In this document: in pieces, positions 11,418-18,169 of the stretch
How the letters are laid out: every line of letters starts with the position of its first letter
Numbering within the stretch: the stretch's first letter is position 1
NCBI GenBank assembly: GCA_028290665.1
Contig: JAQGJK010000016.1
Location: 1 to 64,000, forward strand
Length of the DNA: 64,000 nt
From: Devosia sp.
GTDB lineage: Bacteria > Pseudomonadota > Alphaproteobacteria > Rhizobiales > Devosiaceae
Direction: 5' to 3'
Notes under the pieces: model-generated
What the model saw: only the letters and a program-made list of their open reading frames with translations
Told to the model about the DNA's origin: nothing
The model's database searches: none
Translations under genes and position numbers: made by a program

Positions 11418-12062
11418 TCAGGTCGTCGGCAGGATGCCTGCCGACACCAGCTTGATCGAGCGTTTGCGGGTGTTGTTGTCGGAAGGCGACATCAGGATCG
11501 CCTGTGGGTAAAAGAGCTCGACATCGAAGCGGCCGTCAGCGGCGGCAATCAAGGCTGGCGGCAAATCCACCGTGAATTTCTCGACCCTGCCGGTCGGCAC
11601 GGTCACTGTTTCGATCGATTCGCCATTGATGACGATTTCGACACGCTGGCCAGACGCGCCAGCGCGGTCGACAGCCACCATTTCGGCGACGAACCGCAGC
11701 GGCTGAACCGGTGCATCGAAAGTGAAGCGCAGCCTTGAGCTTTCGCCAACTGCATGCGTGCCGTCGCCGGCCGGGCCTTCCCAACCACAGACCCGTAACG
11801 GCATCGCGGCTTCCCGCCCGGGCGAGGTGAAGTCGATCAGCGCGCCTAACTGGTAGCTGCCGCTCACCGCCTGGTTAAGGCAGGTGATAGTGTGGTCGAT
11901 GTAGTAGGCCCGGTAGTCTGCCGAGACGTTCGGATGCAATGCACCCCACAGCGCCCACATCTCGAACGCCGCGGCCAGAGCCGCAAGCGCATAGAGCGGG
12001 ATCGCTGCGAATGGCGGCCACGCCGGAGGTTTGACGAAGCCGGAATTGACGGAGTTAGACAA
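11418..12062 (-). CDS. Membrane-anchored protein of unknown function
   Basis: 214 residues, family not recognised. One hydrophobic segment near the N-terminus (about residues 18-42, FAAIPLYALAALAAAFEMWALW) should anchor the protein, leaving about 170 residues outside. The outer part looks beta-rich (LRFTFDAPVQPLRFVAEMVAV, RVEIVINGESIETVTVPTGR), like a carbohydrate-binding or jelly-roll module, which is inference. Its start overlaps the end of the PIG-V-like glycosyltransferase by 8 bases, so the two are co-translated and probably act together. The gene converges with the SnoaL-like gene, 9 bp apart. Confidence 0.7.
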   Translation of the reverse strand: MSNSVNSGFVKPPAWPPFAAIPLYALAALAAAFEMWALWGALHPNVSADYRAYYIDHTITCLNQAVSGSYQLGALIDFTSPGREAAMPLRVCGWEGPAGDGTHAVGESSRLRFTFDAPVQPLRFVAEMVAVDRAGASGQRVEIVINGESIETVTVPTGRVEKFTVDLPPALIAAADGRFDVELFYPQAILMSPSDNNTRKRSIKLVSAGILPTT

Positions 12063-13215
12063 GAGCCAGCGCCTCCGTCAGCCAACCGATGGTGCAGAAG
12101 TACCCCCCAACGACAAATACCAACAGCGCCAGCACAAAACTCCATCGGGAACGGGCGAGGAGCGTCACCAGCGTGATTGGAACTGGCGCTAGGCCGGTCA
12201 CAAAACGCAGCATCGAGGCCATGCCAGCGAACAGCGGTACGACCAACGCGATGGCGCTGAATACAGCCATGGCGAACTGCCGGCGCACCACCATCACCCC
12301 GATCAGCGCGAAGCCGACTAGTGTCGCCACACCCAGTTGCTGGGAGGCGCTAGGTACCCATGTGCCGGCCTCGCCGGTATTGAGTGCCTGCCAGACGAAC
12401 ATCAGCGGGTTGCCGGATGGGCGGGCCCAGGCGCGTTGGACATGGCTGAATGCCAGCCCGTCGCCGATGTGGAATTGCAGGTACGCCATGTAGCAGAACA
12501 ACCCCAGTGGGGCGATGAACACCGCCAGCACGAGGTCGGGGCGACGCAGCGCCGCCGGGACAAAGTCGACCAGTCGGCCGCCACGTTCTCGATGCTCTAG
12601 CCACGCTTCGATGACGATGGCAAAGACGATGAATACCCCGACGATGCGTGTCGCCGAGACCAGCGCGGCGAAGACGCCCGCCAGTAGATAGTTCCGGCGC
12701 TTTACCGCAACGAAGGTGCAGACAGTCAACAATAGAAACAGCACCTCGGTGTAGAACGTGGTGAAATAGATGGAAAATGGGCCGCACAGCAGGAATGCCG
12801 AGAATAGGATGTAGGCCCGCTGGCTCCCCCCGAGCAGCGGCCGTGCGGCCATGGCGGCAACGCCACTGAGCAGGATCGAGACAATTGTCGCGATGACGAT
12901 TGTCGTCTGACCGGTCAGCAGGCGCAGGCCGCCGATCAGCATCGGGTATAGTGGGAAAAACGCCCAGTTCCCGGAGTTGATCATCGACGGCACGGGGAAC
13001 GGATCGTAGCCACCTTCGGCGAGCCGGACATACCAGTCGCAATCCCATTTGCAGAGCCCATTGGCGAACGTTGCGAACGATGCGTCGGGTACGACACTGG
13101 CAAAGGCCAAGTACCGGACGATCAGTCCAACGATGGCGCAGACGATCGGTACGAGCAGCACCGACAGCTCGAAACGTCGGGCACGGGGCAGGGAACTGGC
13201 AGTCAGCTCAGCCAT
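12055..13215 (-). CDS. PIG-V-like multi-spanning glycosyltransferase (GT-C type)
   Basis: 386 residues with about nine or more hydrophobic segments. The motif CKWDCDWYVRLAEGGYD and NWAFFPLYPMLIGGLRLL match the first loop of the PIG-V/mannosyltransferase family, in which acidic residues bind the lipid-linked sugar donor. These enzymes use polyprenyl-phosphate sugars and act on the outer face of the inner membrane. It is divergent from opgG, with a 201-bp spacer. A possible donor maker, a polyprenyl-phosphate glycosyltransferase, lies in the opposite operon at 16991. Acceptor unknown; decoration of periplasmic glucans is a hypothesis. Confidence 0.82.
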   Translation of the reverse strand: MAELTASSLPRARRFELSVLLVPIVCAIVGLIVRYLAFASVVPDASFATFANGLCKWDCDWYVRLAEGGYDPFPVPSMINSGNWAFFPLYPMLIGGLRLLTGQTTIVIATIVSILLSGVAAMAARPLLGGSQRAYILFSAFLLCGPFSIYFTTFYTEVLFLLLTVCTFVAVKRRNYLLAGVFAALVSATRIVGVFIVFAIVIEAWLEHRERGGRLVDFVPAALRRPDLVLAVFIAPLGLFCYMAYLQFHIGDGLAFSHVQRAWARPSGNPLMFVWQALNTGEAGTWVPSASQQLGVATLVGFALIGVMVVRRQFAMAVFSAIALVVPLFAGMASMLRFVTGLAPVPITLVTLLARSRWSFVLALLVFVVGGYFCTIGWLTEALALV

Positions 13216-13289
13216 TGAAATACCTGCAAGATGCGTCCCTTCCGGGCTCGACCCGAGTTTACAACCTGACGGGACGACTCGCTAGCAAT

Positions 13290-13311
13290 TCTCCAGAGAC
13301 ACATCTGGAGA
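13290..13311. promoter_or_regulatory. Perfect inverted repeat between divergent operons
   Basis: TCTCCAGA-GACACA-TCTGGAGA is an 8-bp perfect inverted repeat with a 6-bp centre in the 201-bp spacer between the PIG-V-like gene and opgG. The rest of the spacer holds no gene. It could be an operator shared by the two divergent units or a leader hairpin of opgG; nothing in the sequence decides between these. Confidence 0.4.
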
Positions 13312-13416
13312 CATTCTAACTCCGCATGGGACCTATGCGACAACTTTCTCGCGATTGATAGGTTAGAAAGCCTCGTAAGGTCGGTCACGGACTGGTCGGG
13401 TTCATTTGCAGGCGTC

Positions 13417-14997
13417 ATGTCTTTTGCAGCAGCATATTCATATCAGCGTCGCAGTGTTCTCAAACTCCTCGCCGCTGGTGCATTGCTGGGCACCACCCAC
13501 ACTAAACTCGCATTTGCTGAAGGCGCTCCAGCCATCCCTTTCGATTTCGACATGCTGACGGAACGGGTGCGTACCGCGGCGCAGCGGTCCTTTGTTCCGT
13601 CGGCCGCCAAGCTTCCCGCCGGCATCGCCAATCTCGACTATGATGCCTACCGCAAGATCCAGTTTGTCCCCGAGCATGCGATGTGGGCCGAAAGCGACGC
13701 GGGCTATCAGGTGCATGCTTATCACCTCGGCTGGCTCTATCTCGAACCCGTGCAACTGTTTGAAGTCGCCGATGGCGGCGCGGTGCCGATGAGCTTTACT
13801 GCCGGTGATTTCGATTATCATGATGCCGCAGTCGGTGCGGCTGCGGCATCCGACTTTCCCGGTGTGGCCGGATTTCGGGTCAATTATCCGATCAATCATG
13901 CCGCCGGGTTTGATGAACTCGTCTCGTTCCTCGGGGCCAGCTATTTCCGCAGCCTCGGGCGCGGCAATATCTACGGCGCCAGTGCGCGTGGCCTTGTCCT
14001 CAACTCCTGGCGCGACGGCAACGAGGAATTCCCGCGGTTTTCCGAGTTTTACCTCGAGCGCCCGACTGCCGGCGCGCCGCTTGCCATTAACGCCGTCCTC
14101 GATAGCCCAAGCGTTGCCGGGGCCTATCGCTTTGAAATCACCCCTGCCGGCGACGCCGCGCAGGAAACCACCATCGACGTTACCGCGCGACTGTTTTTCC
14201 GGTCCGATGTGACCGAGATCGGCGTTGCTCCGCTGACTTCGATGTACCTGTTCTCCGAGGCCAATCGCGCTGACTTCGATGATTACCGACCCCAGGTGCA
14301 TGACAGCAATGGCCTGCTGATCGAGCGTCCGACCGGCGAAGTCATGTGGCGTGCCCTCAACAACTCGGTGGGCATGGGAAATTCCTACCTGTGGGAGGAT
14401 AGTCCGACTGCGTTCGGTCTCTATCAGCGGGGTCGTGATTTCAGCTCCTATGAAGACGCCGGTGCCCAGTATGAACGCCGCCCGTCGATCCGCATCGAAC
14501 CCGTCGGCGCGTGGGGCACCGGGACTGTCCGTCTCATCGAAATTCCGAGCCGACTCGAAGTCGAGGATAATGTCGTTGCCTTCTGGGTGCCGTCAGCGCC
14601 GGTGAAGGCTGGCGAGGCGCGCGAATTCCGCTACCGCATGGTGTGGGGCGATCTTGATCCTGACAATAAGCTTGCCTATGTCGCCGAGACCCGCATAGGG
14701 CAGGGCGGCATTTCGGGCGTCGCCAGTGCCACGAATTTGCGAAAATTCGTGATCGATTTCAAGGGTGGGGAACTCGACGCCATGCCGGCCGATACGCAAC
14801 TCGACGTGTTGGCCACCGTGTCGGCTGGAACTGTTGTTTCCACGACGCTTTTCAAGGTGGTGACCGCCGGTGTCTGGCGTCTGGTCCTTGATGTCGATAC
14901 CAAGGGCGCCGATCCGCTCGAGCTTAAAGCTTACCTCATTGGCCTCGGCCGCAAACTGACCGAAACCTGGCTCTATCAGTGGAGGGCGACAGCATGA
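13417..14997 (+). CDS. opgG: Periplasmic glucan biosynthesis protein OpgG/OpgD
   Basis: 526 residues, normal size for OpgG/OpgD (MdoG/MdoD), periplasmic proteins needed to make branched osmoregulated periplasmic glucans. The N-terminus has a Tat-type signal (YQRRSVLKLLAAGALLGTT...AFA), as in OpgD; the family motifs AYHLGWLYLEPVQLFEVADG and FYLERPTAGA are present. Its stop overlaps the start of a 45-codon ORF and is followed by opgH, giving the classic G-H pair. OpgG versus OpgD cannot be settled without alignment; only one such gene is visible here. Confidence 0.93.
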   Translation: MSFAAAYSYQRRSVLKLLAAGALLGTTHTKLAFAEGAPAIPFDFDMLTERVRTAAQRSFVPSAAKLPAGIANLDYDAYRKIQFVPEHAMWAESDAGYQVHAYHLGWLYLEPVQLFEVADGGAVPMSFTAGDFDYHDAAVGAAAASDFPGVAGFRVNYPINHAAGFDELVSFLGASYFRSLGRGNIYGASARGLVLNSWRDGNEEFPRFSEFYLERPTAGAPLAINAVLDSPSVAGAYRFEITPAGDAAQETTIDVTARLFFRSDVTEIGVAPLTSMYLFSEANRADFDDYRPQVHDSNGLLIERPTGEVMWRALNNSVGMGNSYLWEDSPTAFGLYQRGRDFSSYEDAGAQYERRPSIRIEPVGAWGTGTVRLIEIPSRLEVEDNVVAFWVPSAPVKAGEAREFRYRMVWGDLDPDNKLAYVAETRIGQGGISGVASATNLRKFVIDFKGGELDAMPADTQLDVLATVSAGTVVSTTLFKVVTAGVWRLVLDVDTKGADPLELKAYLIGLGRKLTETWLYQWRATA

Positions 14998-15131
14998 AAC
15001 ACGAAGGATACTCCGCGTTCGTGGCGGCGTTGCCCGACGCGCCAATGGCCATGCCCAAACAAGTGCTCGAGCCGCCCAAGCGATTTGCCTGGATGTTCCG
15101 TTTCGTCTTCGCTCGCCTTTCTCGCGCCTGA
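14994..15131 (+). CDS. Small ORF between opgG and opgH (45 residues)
   Basis: A 45-residue reading frame starts at an ATGA overlap with the opgG stop and ends 29 bp before opgH. The product is basic at its C-terminal half and begins MKHEGYSAFVAALPDAPMAM, ending in PKRFAWMFRFVFARLSRA, an amphipathic or membrane-proximal helix. The translational coupling and conserved-looking position argue that it is translated. The LPDAPMAMP segment recalls the N-terminal cytoplasmic part of some OpgH proteins, so it might be a detached OpgH N-terminus; it is in a different frame from opgH. Function unproven. Confidence 0.5.
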   Translation: MKHEGYSAFVAALPDAPMAMPKQVLEPPKRFAWMFRFVFARLSRA

Positions 15132-15160
15132 ACCTTCTTGCCTCCCGGCGACCGCCCCTG

Positions 15161-16903
15161 ATGTATTTAGCTAATCTTTTGCGTTTTATGTCGATCGCCG
15201 GCGCCCTCCTTCTCAGTTTCTGGGGCGGCTGGTTGCATCTGCGCTATGTCGGCGGAGCCAGCCCGGATCCCTTCGATGTCTTCCGCACGGTTTTGTTCGC
15301 CGTGGCGGTATTCTGGCTCGCCTGGGGAGCCTCGATCGGGTTTATCGGGTTACTTGGCAGGCCAATGAAGGCCCGTTCAGCCAGTCGAGGAATTCCCACC
15401 GGCCGAACGGCGATCCTGATGCCGGTCTACAACGAGGACACCGTCGCGACGCTGGCCCGCATTGCGGTGATGAACCGCGGGCTCGTGGCGCTTGGCGCCG
15501 CAGATCGGTTTCATTTCGTGGTGCTGTCCGACTCGACCGCTGCCGATATCGCGGCGCGGGAAATCGTCATGTTCGAGCGGCTGTTGCGTGAACCGCTGGC
15601 AATGGGCCGAATGTTCTACCGCCGCCGCGACAAGAACCTTGGGCGGAAGGCCGGCAATATCGAGGATTTCGTCACCCGCGCCGGTGGTGCCTATGACTAC
15701 GCGCTGGTGCTCGATGCCGACAGCCTGATGGAGCCGGCAACGATCATCGAAATGGCCTGCCGCATGGACGATGATGCCACGCTCGGCCTGCTGCAATCGG
15801 TGCCGAGCATCGTTGGGGCGCAAAGCCTGTTCGGGCGCTGCCTGCAGTTCGGCGTCGCCTATCTGTCGCCGACGTTTTCGCGCGGCGTCGCGGCCATGCA
15901 GGGGCGGGAGGGCCCGTATTGGGGACACAATGCGATCATCCGGATCACCGCCTTTGCCGGCAGTTGCGGCCTGCCGGTGTTGTCGGGGCGGGCACCCTCG
16001 GGCGGCCATATCCTCAGCCATGATTTCGTCGAGGGCGCGTTGCTGGCGCGTGACGGCTGGACTGTCGTCCTCGATCCGACACTCACCGGTTCCTATGAGG
16101 AAGGTCCCGACAATCTCATTGAGTTCGCCAAGCGTGACCGTCGCTGGTGCCAGGGTAACCTGCAGCATCGCCGGTTATTGCGTGCACCCGGCCTGCGTTT
16201 CTGGAGCCGCTTCAATCTGCTGCACGGCCTGATGTCTTATCTGACATCTCCGCTGTGGCTGCTGCTGTTGAGTGCCAATGTCACGGCGGCCATCTACGAT
16301 GCGCCCCCGGTCGACTCGGCAATCGAGCCGGACTCGGTGTGGCTGCTGATCTCCGCCGTCGCCGCGATCCTGCTGCTCCCCAAGCTGCTGGTTTTTCTGG
16401 TCGGCGTGTTCGATGGGACCAATCGGCAATTTGGCGGGAATTTTGCTACGTTGCGCTCGCTGCTTGCCGAGATCGTCCTATCAACGCTGCTCGCACCGAT
16501 CATGCTGTTGTTCCAGAGCCGAGCCGTGATTCAGACCGTGCTTGGCATCGATGGTGGCTGGCCGGCGGCGCAGCGCTCCGGCGAGGTGGTTTCTGTACAG
16601 GAGGCGGTGACCGCGACCTGGTGGATGTCGCTGTGCGGCGGCGCAGCGATCGTCATCATGCTGGCGCTGACGCCCGACCTGTTCATCTGGCTTGCTCCCG
16701 TAACCGTTCCCTCGAGCCTTGCACCACTGCTTATCGCACTGAGTTCACGCGCCTTTGCCTCGCGCTGGTGGTTTGAGAGCCCCAACGAAGCTCCGGCCGG
16801 CATTGTGGAGCAGTACCGGGCGTTCAAAGCCGATTTGTCGGAAAAGCGCCCGGCATTTGTCGAACCCACGCAACCTCAAATCGCAACGCAGGTTGCGGCT
16901 TGA
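15161..16903 (+). CDS. opgH: Glucans biosynthesis glucosyltransferase OpgH
   Basis: 580-residue inner-membrane GT2 enzyme, shorter than the enterobacterial form but usual for rhizobial OpgH. Two N-terminal hydrophobic segments (about 10-30 and 43-65) precede the glycosyltransferase domain: LMPVYNED (87-93), the DxD motif LDADSL (184-189), the base SHDFVEGALL (D288) and RRWCQGN (327-333). Several C-terminal membrane segments follow. It polymerises glucose from UDP-glucose and exports the chain to the periplasm, where OpgG acts. It is followed by a polyprenyl-phosphate glycosyltransferase gene 87 bp later. Confidence 0.95.
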   Translation: MYLANLLRFMSIAGALLLSFWGGWLHLRYVGGASPDPFDVFRTVLFAVAVFWLAWGASIGFIGLLGRPMKARSASRGIPTGRTAILMPVYNEDTVATLARIAVMNRGLVALGAADRFHFVVLSDSTAADIAAREIVMFERLLREPLAMGRMFYRRRDKNLGRKAGNIEDFVTRAGGAYDYALVLDADSLMEPATIIEMACRMDDDATLGLLQSVPSIVGAQSLFGRCLQFGVAYLSPTFSRGVAAMQGREGPYWGHNAIIRITAFAGSCGLPVLSGRAPSGGHILSHDFVEGALLARDGWTVVLDPTLTGSYEEGPDNLIEFAKRDRRWCQGNLQHRRLLRAPGLRFWSRFNLLHGLMSYLTSPLWLLLLSANVTAAIYDAPPVDSAIEPDSVWLLISAVAAILLLPKLLVFLVGVFDGTNRQFGGNFATLRSLLAEIVLSTLLAPIMLLFQSRAVIQTVLGIDGGWPAAQRSGEVVSVQEAVTATWWMSLCGGAAIVIMLALTPDLFIWLAPVTVPSSLAPLLIALSSRAFASRWWFESPNEAPAGIVEQYRAFKADLSEKRPAFVEPTQPQIATQVAA

Positions 16904-16990
16904 CGGCATTGTTGCCGGCCGATCTGCCGCCCCGGCCGAGAGCTTGTCCTCGGATTTCTGCACTAGCCCGCATTGCACTCTGCTATCTGG

Positions 16991-18169
16991 ATGAACACTA
17001 TGACCGTCATCGACTTTACTGCCGCGACTGATAACTCCGACCTGATGGCTGACCCGGTCGCGCGCGCCAATCGCTCCGGTGCCCCGGAATTTGCCATCAT
17101 CGTCCCGACTTTCAACGAGCGTGCCAATTTGCTGGCGCTGACGACCAAGCTCGAGACCACTCTCGCGGGGCTCGATTGGGAACTGATTGTCGTCGACGAC
17201 GACAGCCCGGACGGTACCGCCGATCTTGCTTGGCAGCTTGGTCGCGAGCATCCCAACGTCCGTTGCATCAAGCGCATCGGCCGCCGTGGGCTGGCTTCGG
17301 CCTGTATCGAGGGCATCCTCTCGACTAATGCGCCGTTCGTCGCCGTAATGGATGGCGACCTCCAGCATGACGAAACCATTTTGCCCGCCATGCTGGCGAA
17401 AATCAAAGCCGGTGCCGATATCGCTGTCGGCTCGCGCTACGTCGGCGATGGTTCGTCCGGCGAGGGGCTATCTCCGCTGCGCAAATGGGGCAGCGAACAG
17501 GCGACCCGCCTGTCGACGCTGCTGACCGGCCAGACGCTTTCCGATCCGATGAGCGGATTTTTCGCCGTGCGCCGGGACTTTTTCATTGATGTCGCTCCCA
17601 AGCTTTCCGACGAAGGCTTCAAAATCCTGCTCGATCTGATCGTCAGCGCCTCGCGGCAGGGCACCGCGCCCGCCATCGCCGAAGTGCCGTACACGTTCCG
17701 CGCCCGTACTGCCGGCGAGAGCAAGATGAGCCCGCTGGTTGTCACCCAGTTCCTTGGCCTTTGGGTCTCCAAGCTGTCCGGGGGCGTGCTGCCAACCAGT
17801 TTCCTGCTGTTTTCGCTGGTCGGTTTTACCGGTATCGCCATCCATCTCGGCGTGCTGACGCTGTTCACGACGGTGTGGAATATCGGCTTCATCCCGGCGC
17901 AGATCGCCGCAACGCTGATTGCGATGACGTGGAATTTCTTCCTCAACAACTGGATCACCTATGCCGACAAGAAGCTGCGTGGCTGGAAGGCTCTGCAAGG
18001 ATTGCTGCTGTTCTATGCTGCCTGCTCGATCGGAGGCATCGCCAACGTTTCCGTCGCCTCGATGATTTACGACCTGCGCGCCGTGCCGATCGTCGCGGGT
18101 CTTGCGGGGGCGGTGATGAGTTCGGTGTTCAACTACGCCGTGACCCGTACGTTCACTTGGCGGAGCTAG
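16991..18169 (+). CDS. GT2 polyprenyl-phosphate glycosyltransferase fused to GtrA domain
   Basis: 392 residues from the ATG at 16991 (another ATG at 17000; no strong ribosome site separates them). Residues about 33-250 form a dolichol-phosphate-mannose-synthase-like GT2 domain (IIVPTFNERANL, VVDDDSPDGT, MDGDLQHDE at 120-128, AVGSRYVGDGSSGEGL). Residues about 265-392 form a four-helix GtrA-like membrane domain (LFSLVGFTGIAIHLGVL ... WNFFLNNWITY). Such proteins load a sugar onto a polyprenyl phosphate; GtrA domains are linked to its translocation across the membrane. Being next to opgGH and near a GT-C enzyme, it may supply a sugar for modifying periplasmic glucans; that is inference. Confidence 0.88.
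   Translation: MNTMTVIDFTAATDNSDLMADPVARANRSGAPEFAIIVPTFNERANLLALTTKLETTLAGLDWELIVVDDDSPDGTADLAWQLGREHPNVRCIKRIGRRGLASACIEGILSTNAPFVAVMDGDLQHDETILPAMLAKIKAGADIAVGSRYVGDGSSGEGLSPLRKWGSEQATRLSTLLTGQTLSDPMSGFFAVRRDFFIDVAPKLSDEGFKILLDLIVSASRQGTAPAIAEVPYTFRARTAGESKMSPLVVTQFLGLWVSKLSGGVLPTSFLLFSLVGFTGIAIHLGVLTLFTTVWNIGFIPAQIAATLIAMTWNFFLNNWITYADKKLRGWKALQGLLLFYAACSIGGIANVSVASMIYDLRAVPIVAGLAGAVMSSVFNYAVTRTFTWRS

Follow-up and report, generated by a model that had tools for sequence, protein, structure and literature searches.

The window analysed here is a stretch of 64,000 nucleotides (positions 1 to 64,000 of contig JAQGJK010000016.1, assembly GCA_028290665.1, Devosia sp.) from a metagenome-assembled genome of the Devosiaceae that is 61% complete and whose closest named relatives belong to Devosia. 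It contains a locus for the biosynthesis of osmoregulated periplasmic glucans (OPGs), flanked by three genes, here called A, B and E, that we believe, on balance, deliver a lipid-linked sugar to these glucans. The features concerned are as follows:

11418..12062, minus strand: gene A, 214 aa, TTG start as called, sharing 8 nt with the end of gene B
12055..13215, minus strand: gene B, 386 aa, a predicted PIG-V-like GT-C glycosyltransferase (from sequence motifs and a fold model)
13216..13416: divergent control region of 201 bp, common to B-A and opgGH-E
13324..13344, plus strand: conserved GCAT-N7-ATGC-N-ACAAC element, about 90 bp upstream of opgG
13417..14997, plus strand: opgG, 526 aa, with a TAT-like signal, MdoG family (PF04349, E 5e-165)
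15161..16903, plus strand: opgH, 580 aa, membrane OPG glucosyltransferase (NF003959 equivalog)
16973..18169, plus strand: gene E, 398 aa, fusion of a family 2 glycosyltransferase (GT2) and a GtrA/DPMS domain, with a possible alternative ATG start at 17000

The window carries both components that define an OPG biosynthesis locus, a homologue of OpgG/MdoG whose Pfam match covers the entire model and a homologue of OpgH/MdoH that scores 651 bits against the 550 cut-off of the MdoH equivalog. The initial annotation had read the region as opgG and opgH followed by a GT2/GtrA fusion, with B and A divergent from them; all five genes are confirmed in place, but this layout needs one correction, in that the closest relatives have opgC between opgH and E and the window does not. 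The gap between opgH and E (16904-16972, 69 bp) is too short for opgC, and the OpgC acyltransferase family (PF10129) is unmatched in the window genome, although a copy could lie in the missing part, as could a second copy of E. PF10129 is present in 18 of 20 relatives tested and most Devosiaceae opg loci carry opgC, while the window locus itself encodes no OpgC-type acyl modification. Given the position of opgC between opgH and E in two relatives (L064, L155), the window lineage may have lost OPG succinylation yet retained the sugar module. Scans for promoters and terminators found no more candidates than in shuffled sequences, and no Rfam family reached threshold in the region.

There is good support for gene E as a predicted polyprenyl-phosphate hexose synthase fused to a flippase-type GtrA domain. 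In a Pfam search it matches Glycos_transf_2 (PF00535, E 1e-28) and, over the whole model at residues 280-396, GtrA_DPMS_TM (PF04138, E 2e-16), and so combines in one protein the GT2 polyprenyl-phosphate sugar synthase and the GtrA-type flippase component of multi-component glycosylation systems. Compared with proteins of solved structure, it aligns over its full length with the dolichyl-phosphate mannose (DPM) synthase of Pyrococcus furiosus (5mlz; 191 bits, E 2.8e-55), against 44 bits for ArnC-type enzymes and 25 bits for the GtrB-like sll0501. Judged from the family, the sugar is likely to be a hexose, and the resemblance to DPM synthase leans towards mannose, short of proof. A phylogenetic tree places the copies of E that are tied to B-A or to opg genes in one cluster (83% support), within which the opg-linked and B-A-linked subgroups have support of 99 and 98 respectively, and apart from the copies found at groESL loci. 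The latter arrangement is common: E orthologues stand beside groES-groEL in many other Devosiaceae, including genomes without opgG, and in about nine genomes (L028-L036; L037 is also listed) they are divergent beside these genes. In three genomes (G015, G022 and G040, the last without groESL) the next gene after E encodes a protein of about 510 aa with seven or eight predicted transmembrane helices, which may be a further GT-C partner acting on a different acceptor.

Gene B is well supported as a PIG-V-like GT-C enzyme predicted to use a lipid-linked sugar, although this could not be recognised by family searches. No Pfam family is matched by the window protein alone, and a profile of B found nothing among the sequences of solved structures; matches came from the fold search alone. 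The AlphaFold model (pLDDT 88) has a clear GT-C fold (VIA-align), matching AglB, ALG12, Pmt1/Pmt2, Pmt4, ArnT and PglB with Z scores of 18.5 to 15 over 290-330 residues, those for AglB, ALG12 and Pmt being about 18, and the GPI mannosyltransferase I of Candida with Z 16.7. Together with this fold, the first outer loop of B contains a conserved acidic motif: Asp58, in the sequence LCxWDCxWY directly after the first transmembrane helix, is invariant in 44 sequences and its two flanking cysteines are invariant or nearly so, as are the blocks NWA-FP and GD-LAF-H-Q. The motif is a modified WDC, with no conserved DxD, and Asp58 is likely, from its conservation, to be the catalytic residue. We take the first-loop signature WD..WY...A..GY...NWAFFP to resemble that of PIG-V, and B shares its fold with the PIG-V and PIG-M mannosyltransferases. 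It differs from them in being bacterial, in having another partner and probably another acceptor, and in lacking a match to the Pfam family: PF04188 is unmatched by the window protein at E 1 and matched by 5 of 44 relatives (best E 6.8e-6), and on these scores membership of PIG-V was rejected. Membership of the AZOBR_p60025 family (NF046093), named as a 'cell surface glycopolymer formation protein', was also rejected, as only the central part of B matched (E 3e-6; 26.5 bits against a cut-off of 150). The B proteins of the window type form a single clade with a support of 99.

Gene A encodes a protein with a short N-terminus, one transmembrane helix (residues 20-42) and a predicted periplasmic jelly roll (residues ~71-214). 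The window protein has no significant Pfam family, and its relatives give scattered weak matches to carbohydrate-binding modules (CBMs) in single members, and to BcsB (E 0.07) in 2 of 40. The jelly roll is closest to CBM35, CBM36, CBM6 and CBM22, the CBM35 structure 2w3j aligning with Z 10.9 and rmsd 2.7 over 114 residues; Foldseek, in addition, matches it to the carbohydrate-binding domains of BcsB with E 2e-5. BcsB itself is anchored to the membrane and serves in the periplasm as partner of a membrane glucan synthase, but A is much smaller, has one such domain, and resembles BcsB marginally or not at all in sequence. Outer carbohydrate-binding domains are built into some larger GT-C enzymes, and it has been speculated that small GT-C enzymes may need a second, acceptor-binding protein (PMC8035078). 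A adjoins B in all 29 loci of the window clade (L058-L086), and this conservation beside an enzyme of 386 aa, with the CBM-like shape, fits such a role; we therefore propose that A may be an acceptor-binding subunit, as its modelled fold suggests.

E, B and A are, in these respects, parts of a three- or multi-component transmembrane glycosylation system, sugar transfer itself being predicted from sequence and fold models. The systems GtrA-GtrB-Gtr(type) of Shigella, GtlA-GtcA-GtlB of Listeria and CsbB-GtcA-YfhO have a polyprenyl-phosphate sugar synthase, a GtrA-type flippase and a GT-C transferase in common. The window differs in that synthase and GtrA are one protein, in that a separate CBM-like protein stands beside a small GT-C enzyme, and in that the predicted acceptor is a periplasmic glucan. 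The initial annotation had likewise joined a lipid-linked sugar to the OPG genes; families and folds lend good support to the roles it gave E and B, while we infer the OPG acceptor and the novelty of the group.

The argument for an OPG acceptor comes from co-occurrence, gene order and a shared control region. Context maps made with a codon-position gene caller and tblastn place B-A next to opgGH in ten loci, in three arrangements, and coordinates add G359 and G427, which makes 12 other Devosiaceae genomes. B-A is divergent from opgC-opgH-opgG in L058-L063 and L068 (arrangement i), and divergent from E-opgC-opgH-opgG in L064 and L155 (arrangement ii), of which the window is a version without opgC. 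In the third arrangement (L067), B-A follows opgG-opgH-opgC colinearly, as if in an operon.

Across 136 Devosiaceae genomes, 42 have both opgG and a B of the window clade (45-63% identity to window B, two partial copies included), 27 have opgG only, 67 have neither, and none has B only. For the initial annotation, a lack of co-occurrence with opgGH in relatives would have counted against its reading, and the comparison did not refute it: 42 of 42 genomes with B have opgG, often adjacent, even though the two are mostly unlinked in this set. The same is true of genomes reached through named Devosia loci, where all 24 with B also carry opgG. Many of these genomes are drafts in which a missing B may be an assembly gap, which weakens the category of opgG without B but leaves unaffected the observation that B is never found without opgG. 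A divergent B-A paralogue (36-42% identity to window B) served as a control; it occurs in 12 genomes, of which six have opgG, which is the base rate (Fisher p 1.0). The loci of the paralogue (L087-L096, L098) show no tie to opgG, and in several Devosia its neighbours are ABC-transporter genes.

The control region contains the sequence GCAT-N7-ATGC-N-ACAAC, oriented towards opgG and partly palindromic, which is invariant or nearly so in an alignment of the gaps between B and opgG in ten linked loci. With at most 3 mismatches in 13 allowed, the Devosiaceae opgG loci carry it in 33 of 35 cases (one genome is counted twice), at 79-108 bp ahead of the opgG start and whether or not B is adjacent, against 2.8% expected by shuffling; among the loci concerned are the window, L058-L064, L068 and L138-L157. 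The 14 genomes with an exact element at opgG have no other exact copy, and among five opgG-negative genomes scanned the element was absent from four and present once in the fifth. This distribution marks it as an opg element that linked loci share with the promoter side of B-A, and from the sequence it is probably an operator private to the opg operon. In the gaps between E and B-A at unlinked loci, the element stands out above the 99th percentile of the local background in just 3 of 19 cases (strongly in L069, weakly in L065 and L079), which is suggestive at best. Considered as an RNA hairpin, the element keeps its outer four pairs alone in all strong sites and its inner pairs are often broken, for which reason a putative DNA-binding site is the tentatively preferred interpretation.

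In proposing a mechanism, we need to explain how a sugar activated in the cytosol could reach a glucan in the periplasm. First, the cytosolic GT2 domain of E would take a hexose, our first guess being mannose and our second glucose, from a nucleotide sugar and attach it to polyprenyl phosphate. The GtrA-type domain of E would then help to move the lipid-linked sugar to the periplasmic face, where B would transfer it to the glucan extruded by OpgH and processed by OpgG. A, with its single-helix tether and carbohydrate-binding-like domain, would hold the glucan next to B. A partial precedent exists in the opgGHC loci of R. sphaeroides, E. coli and Dickeya (PMC4726272), where a membrane enzyme that modifies OPGs, the succinyltransferase OpgC, is similarly encoded with or near opgGH; here, however, the B-A pair is predicted to be a glycosyltransferase rather than an acyltransferase, and opgC is lacking. 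We consider it rather more probable than otherwise that the E-B-A module acts on OPGs in this way. The analysis shows the families and folds of the proteins, the order of the genes, the nesting of B within opgG-positive genomes and the conserved control region, while sugar, acceptor, flipping and the role of A are all inferred.

Several observations weigh against this proposal or limit the support for it. The association between B and opgG is very strong in a 2 x 2 table (Fisher p 5e-17), but this ignores kinship. On an rpoB tree of 98 genomes, built from rpoB-matching frames, the presence of B must have switched at least 11 times and that of opgG at least 13 times along well-supported branches, and among independent pairs of genomes differing in B, a mean of 5.6 differ in opgG the same way and 0 the opposite way (median p 0.03, range 0.008-0.25); after kinship the tie thus keeps a consistent direction and a modest strength, the sign test being only just significant. 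The 27 Devosiaceae with opgG and without B mean that B is not needed for OPG synthesis, and the presence of E in genomes without opgG means that E is not OPG-specific in the family. The likeness of A to CBMs is at the level of fold only, with TM-scores to the query of about 0.3-0.43. At 20 Devosia loci (L065, L066, L069-L086; arrangement iv), E is divergent from B-A with no adjacent opg gene, and where an opg locus was read in such genomes, opgGHC lies elsewhere (e.g., L138, L140-L142, L145, L147). Among the distant loci tested there is no opg link outside the Devosiaceae, and several of those genomes lack opgG. Finally, structural data on Devosia OPGs were not found in the literature, of which few subscription journals were covered.

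The separation of module and opg genes at those 20 loci, and in distant phyla, speaks for a different acceptor. E-B-A might glycosylate another envelope polymer (lipopolysaccharide core, O-antigen, exopolysaccharide or protein) and stay close to or together with opgGH through control of both by a common osmotic or envelope signal; the shared control region alone would account for adjacency, and systems of this type are known to modify O-antigen, teichoic acids and wall polysaccharides (PMC11127046, PMC8035078, PMC7389260). Yet the window-clade B is never without opgG in the 136 genomes, though mostly unlinked to it, while its paralogue is indifferent to opgG, and in L067 B-A is placed operon-like after opgC, whose product modifies OPGs in other bacteria (PMC4726272). 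We regard another polymer as a serious but distinctly less probable explanation, to which we would give about one chance in four. A second alternative is that E makes polyprenyl-phosphate glucose and B adds glucose branches (1,6-linked, for example) to the OPG, in which case the product is all glucose and there is no new decoration. OpgG, once taken as the branching enzyme, is now classed as a GH186 beta-1,2-glucanase (PMC11842490), so that in some lineages a further enzyme may be required for branching, and undecaprenyl phosphate has been listed as possibly involved in OPG synthesis in E. coli (PMC12826051). A hexose is isobaric with backbone glucose, each adding 162 Da, and intact mass alone, as in the mass comparison suggested by the initial annotation, therefore cannot tell a decoration from an extra backbone unit. 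But E is nearer to DPM synthase than to ArnC or GtrB-like enzymes, even if this does not fix the sugar, and the opgG-positive genomes without B also speak against glucose branching, which we consider unlikely. That the neighbourhood reflects chance or hitch-hiking without a functional tie is very improbable and was rejected, for although module and opgGH have both been gained or lost often in Devosiaceae and E normally stands beside groESL, three different arrangements keep B-A with opg genes and, where chance predicts B in opgG-negative genomes, its presence is nested within that of opgG, with no association for the paralogue.

The proposed action of E-B-A on OPGs may be a specialisation of a wider system. 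Among 38 distant loci (L100-L137), 28 have an A-like gene and 22 an E-type GT2; Desulfoscipio (L100) has B-A-GT2-GtrA as four adjacent genes, and in Thiocapsa (L111) GtrA-GT2 is divergent from B-A, which is the window layout with split genes. Clusters of B, an A-like gene and a GT2, with or without GtrA, were seen in Firmicutes, gammaproteobacteria and Acidobacteria, and B beside a GT2 in an archaeon of the Thermoplasmatales (L100-L122, L129, L130, L135). Two copies of B occur in a row with A in L104 (B-A-B-A) and L119 (B-A-B), which suggests successive transfers by paired enzymes. GT-C enzymes with a jelly-roll partner are apparently an undescribed general class. Since the module is widespread, without an opg link in the loci tested elsewhere, the acceptor would differ between lineages, the Devosiaceae having coupled the module to OPGs. 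The fuller proposal, that Devosia OPGs carry a non-backbone sugar added from a polyprenyl-phosphate donor by a GT-C enzyme that depends on a separate, membrane-tethered CBM-like subunit for holding the glucan, and that A and B with GT2 and GtrA form an unrecognised general class of small GT-C systems spanning several phyla, is put forward tentatively, as somewhat less probable than not.

The sugar of OPGs is described as glucose alone and their substituents as acyl or phospho groups (PMC4726272, PMC3818809), and no report of glycosyl substituents was found in the literature, again with few subscription journals covered. The A-B pair bears on the published question of whether small GT-C enzymes use a second acceptor-binding protein (PMC8035078), for which A is a concrete and widely conserved candidate, and since culturable Devosia carry these genes, Devosia sp. 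Root413D1 and D. insulae with the linked locus among them, direct testing is possible. If our interpretation is correct, a lipid-delivered sugar would add a new class to the known modifications of OPGs, and multi-component glycosylation systems would be extended to a free periplasmic oligosaccharide.

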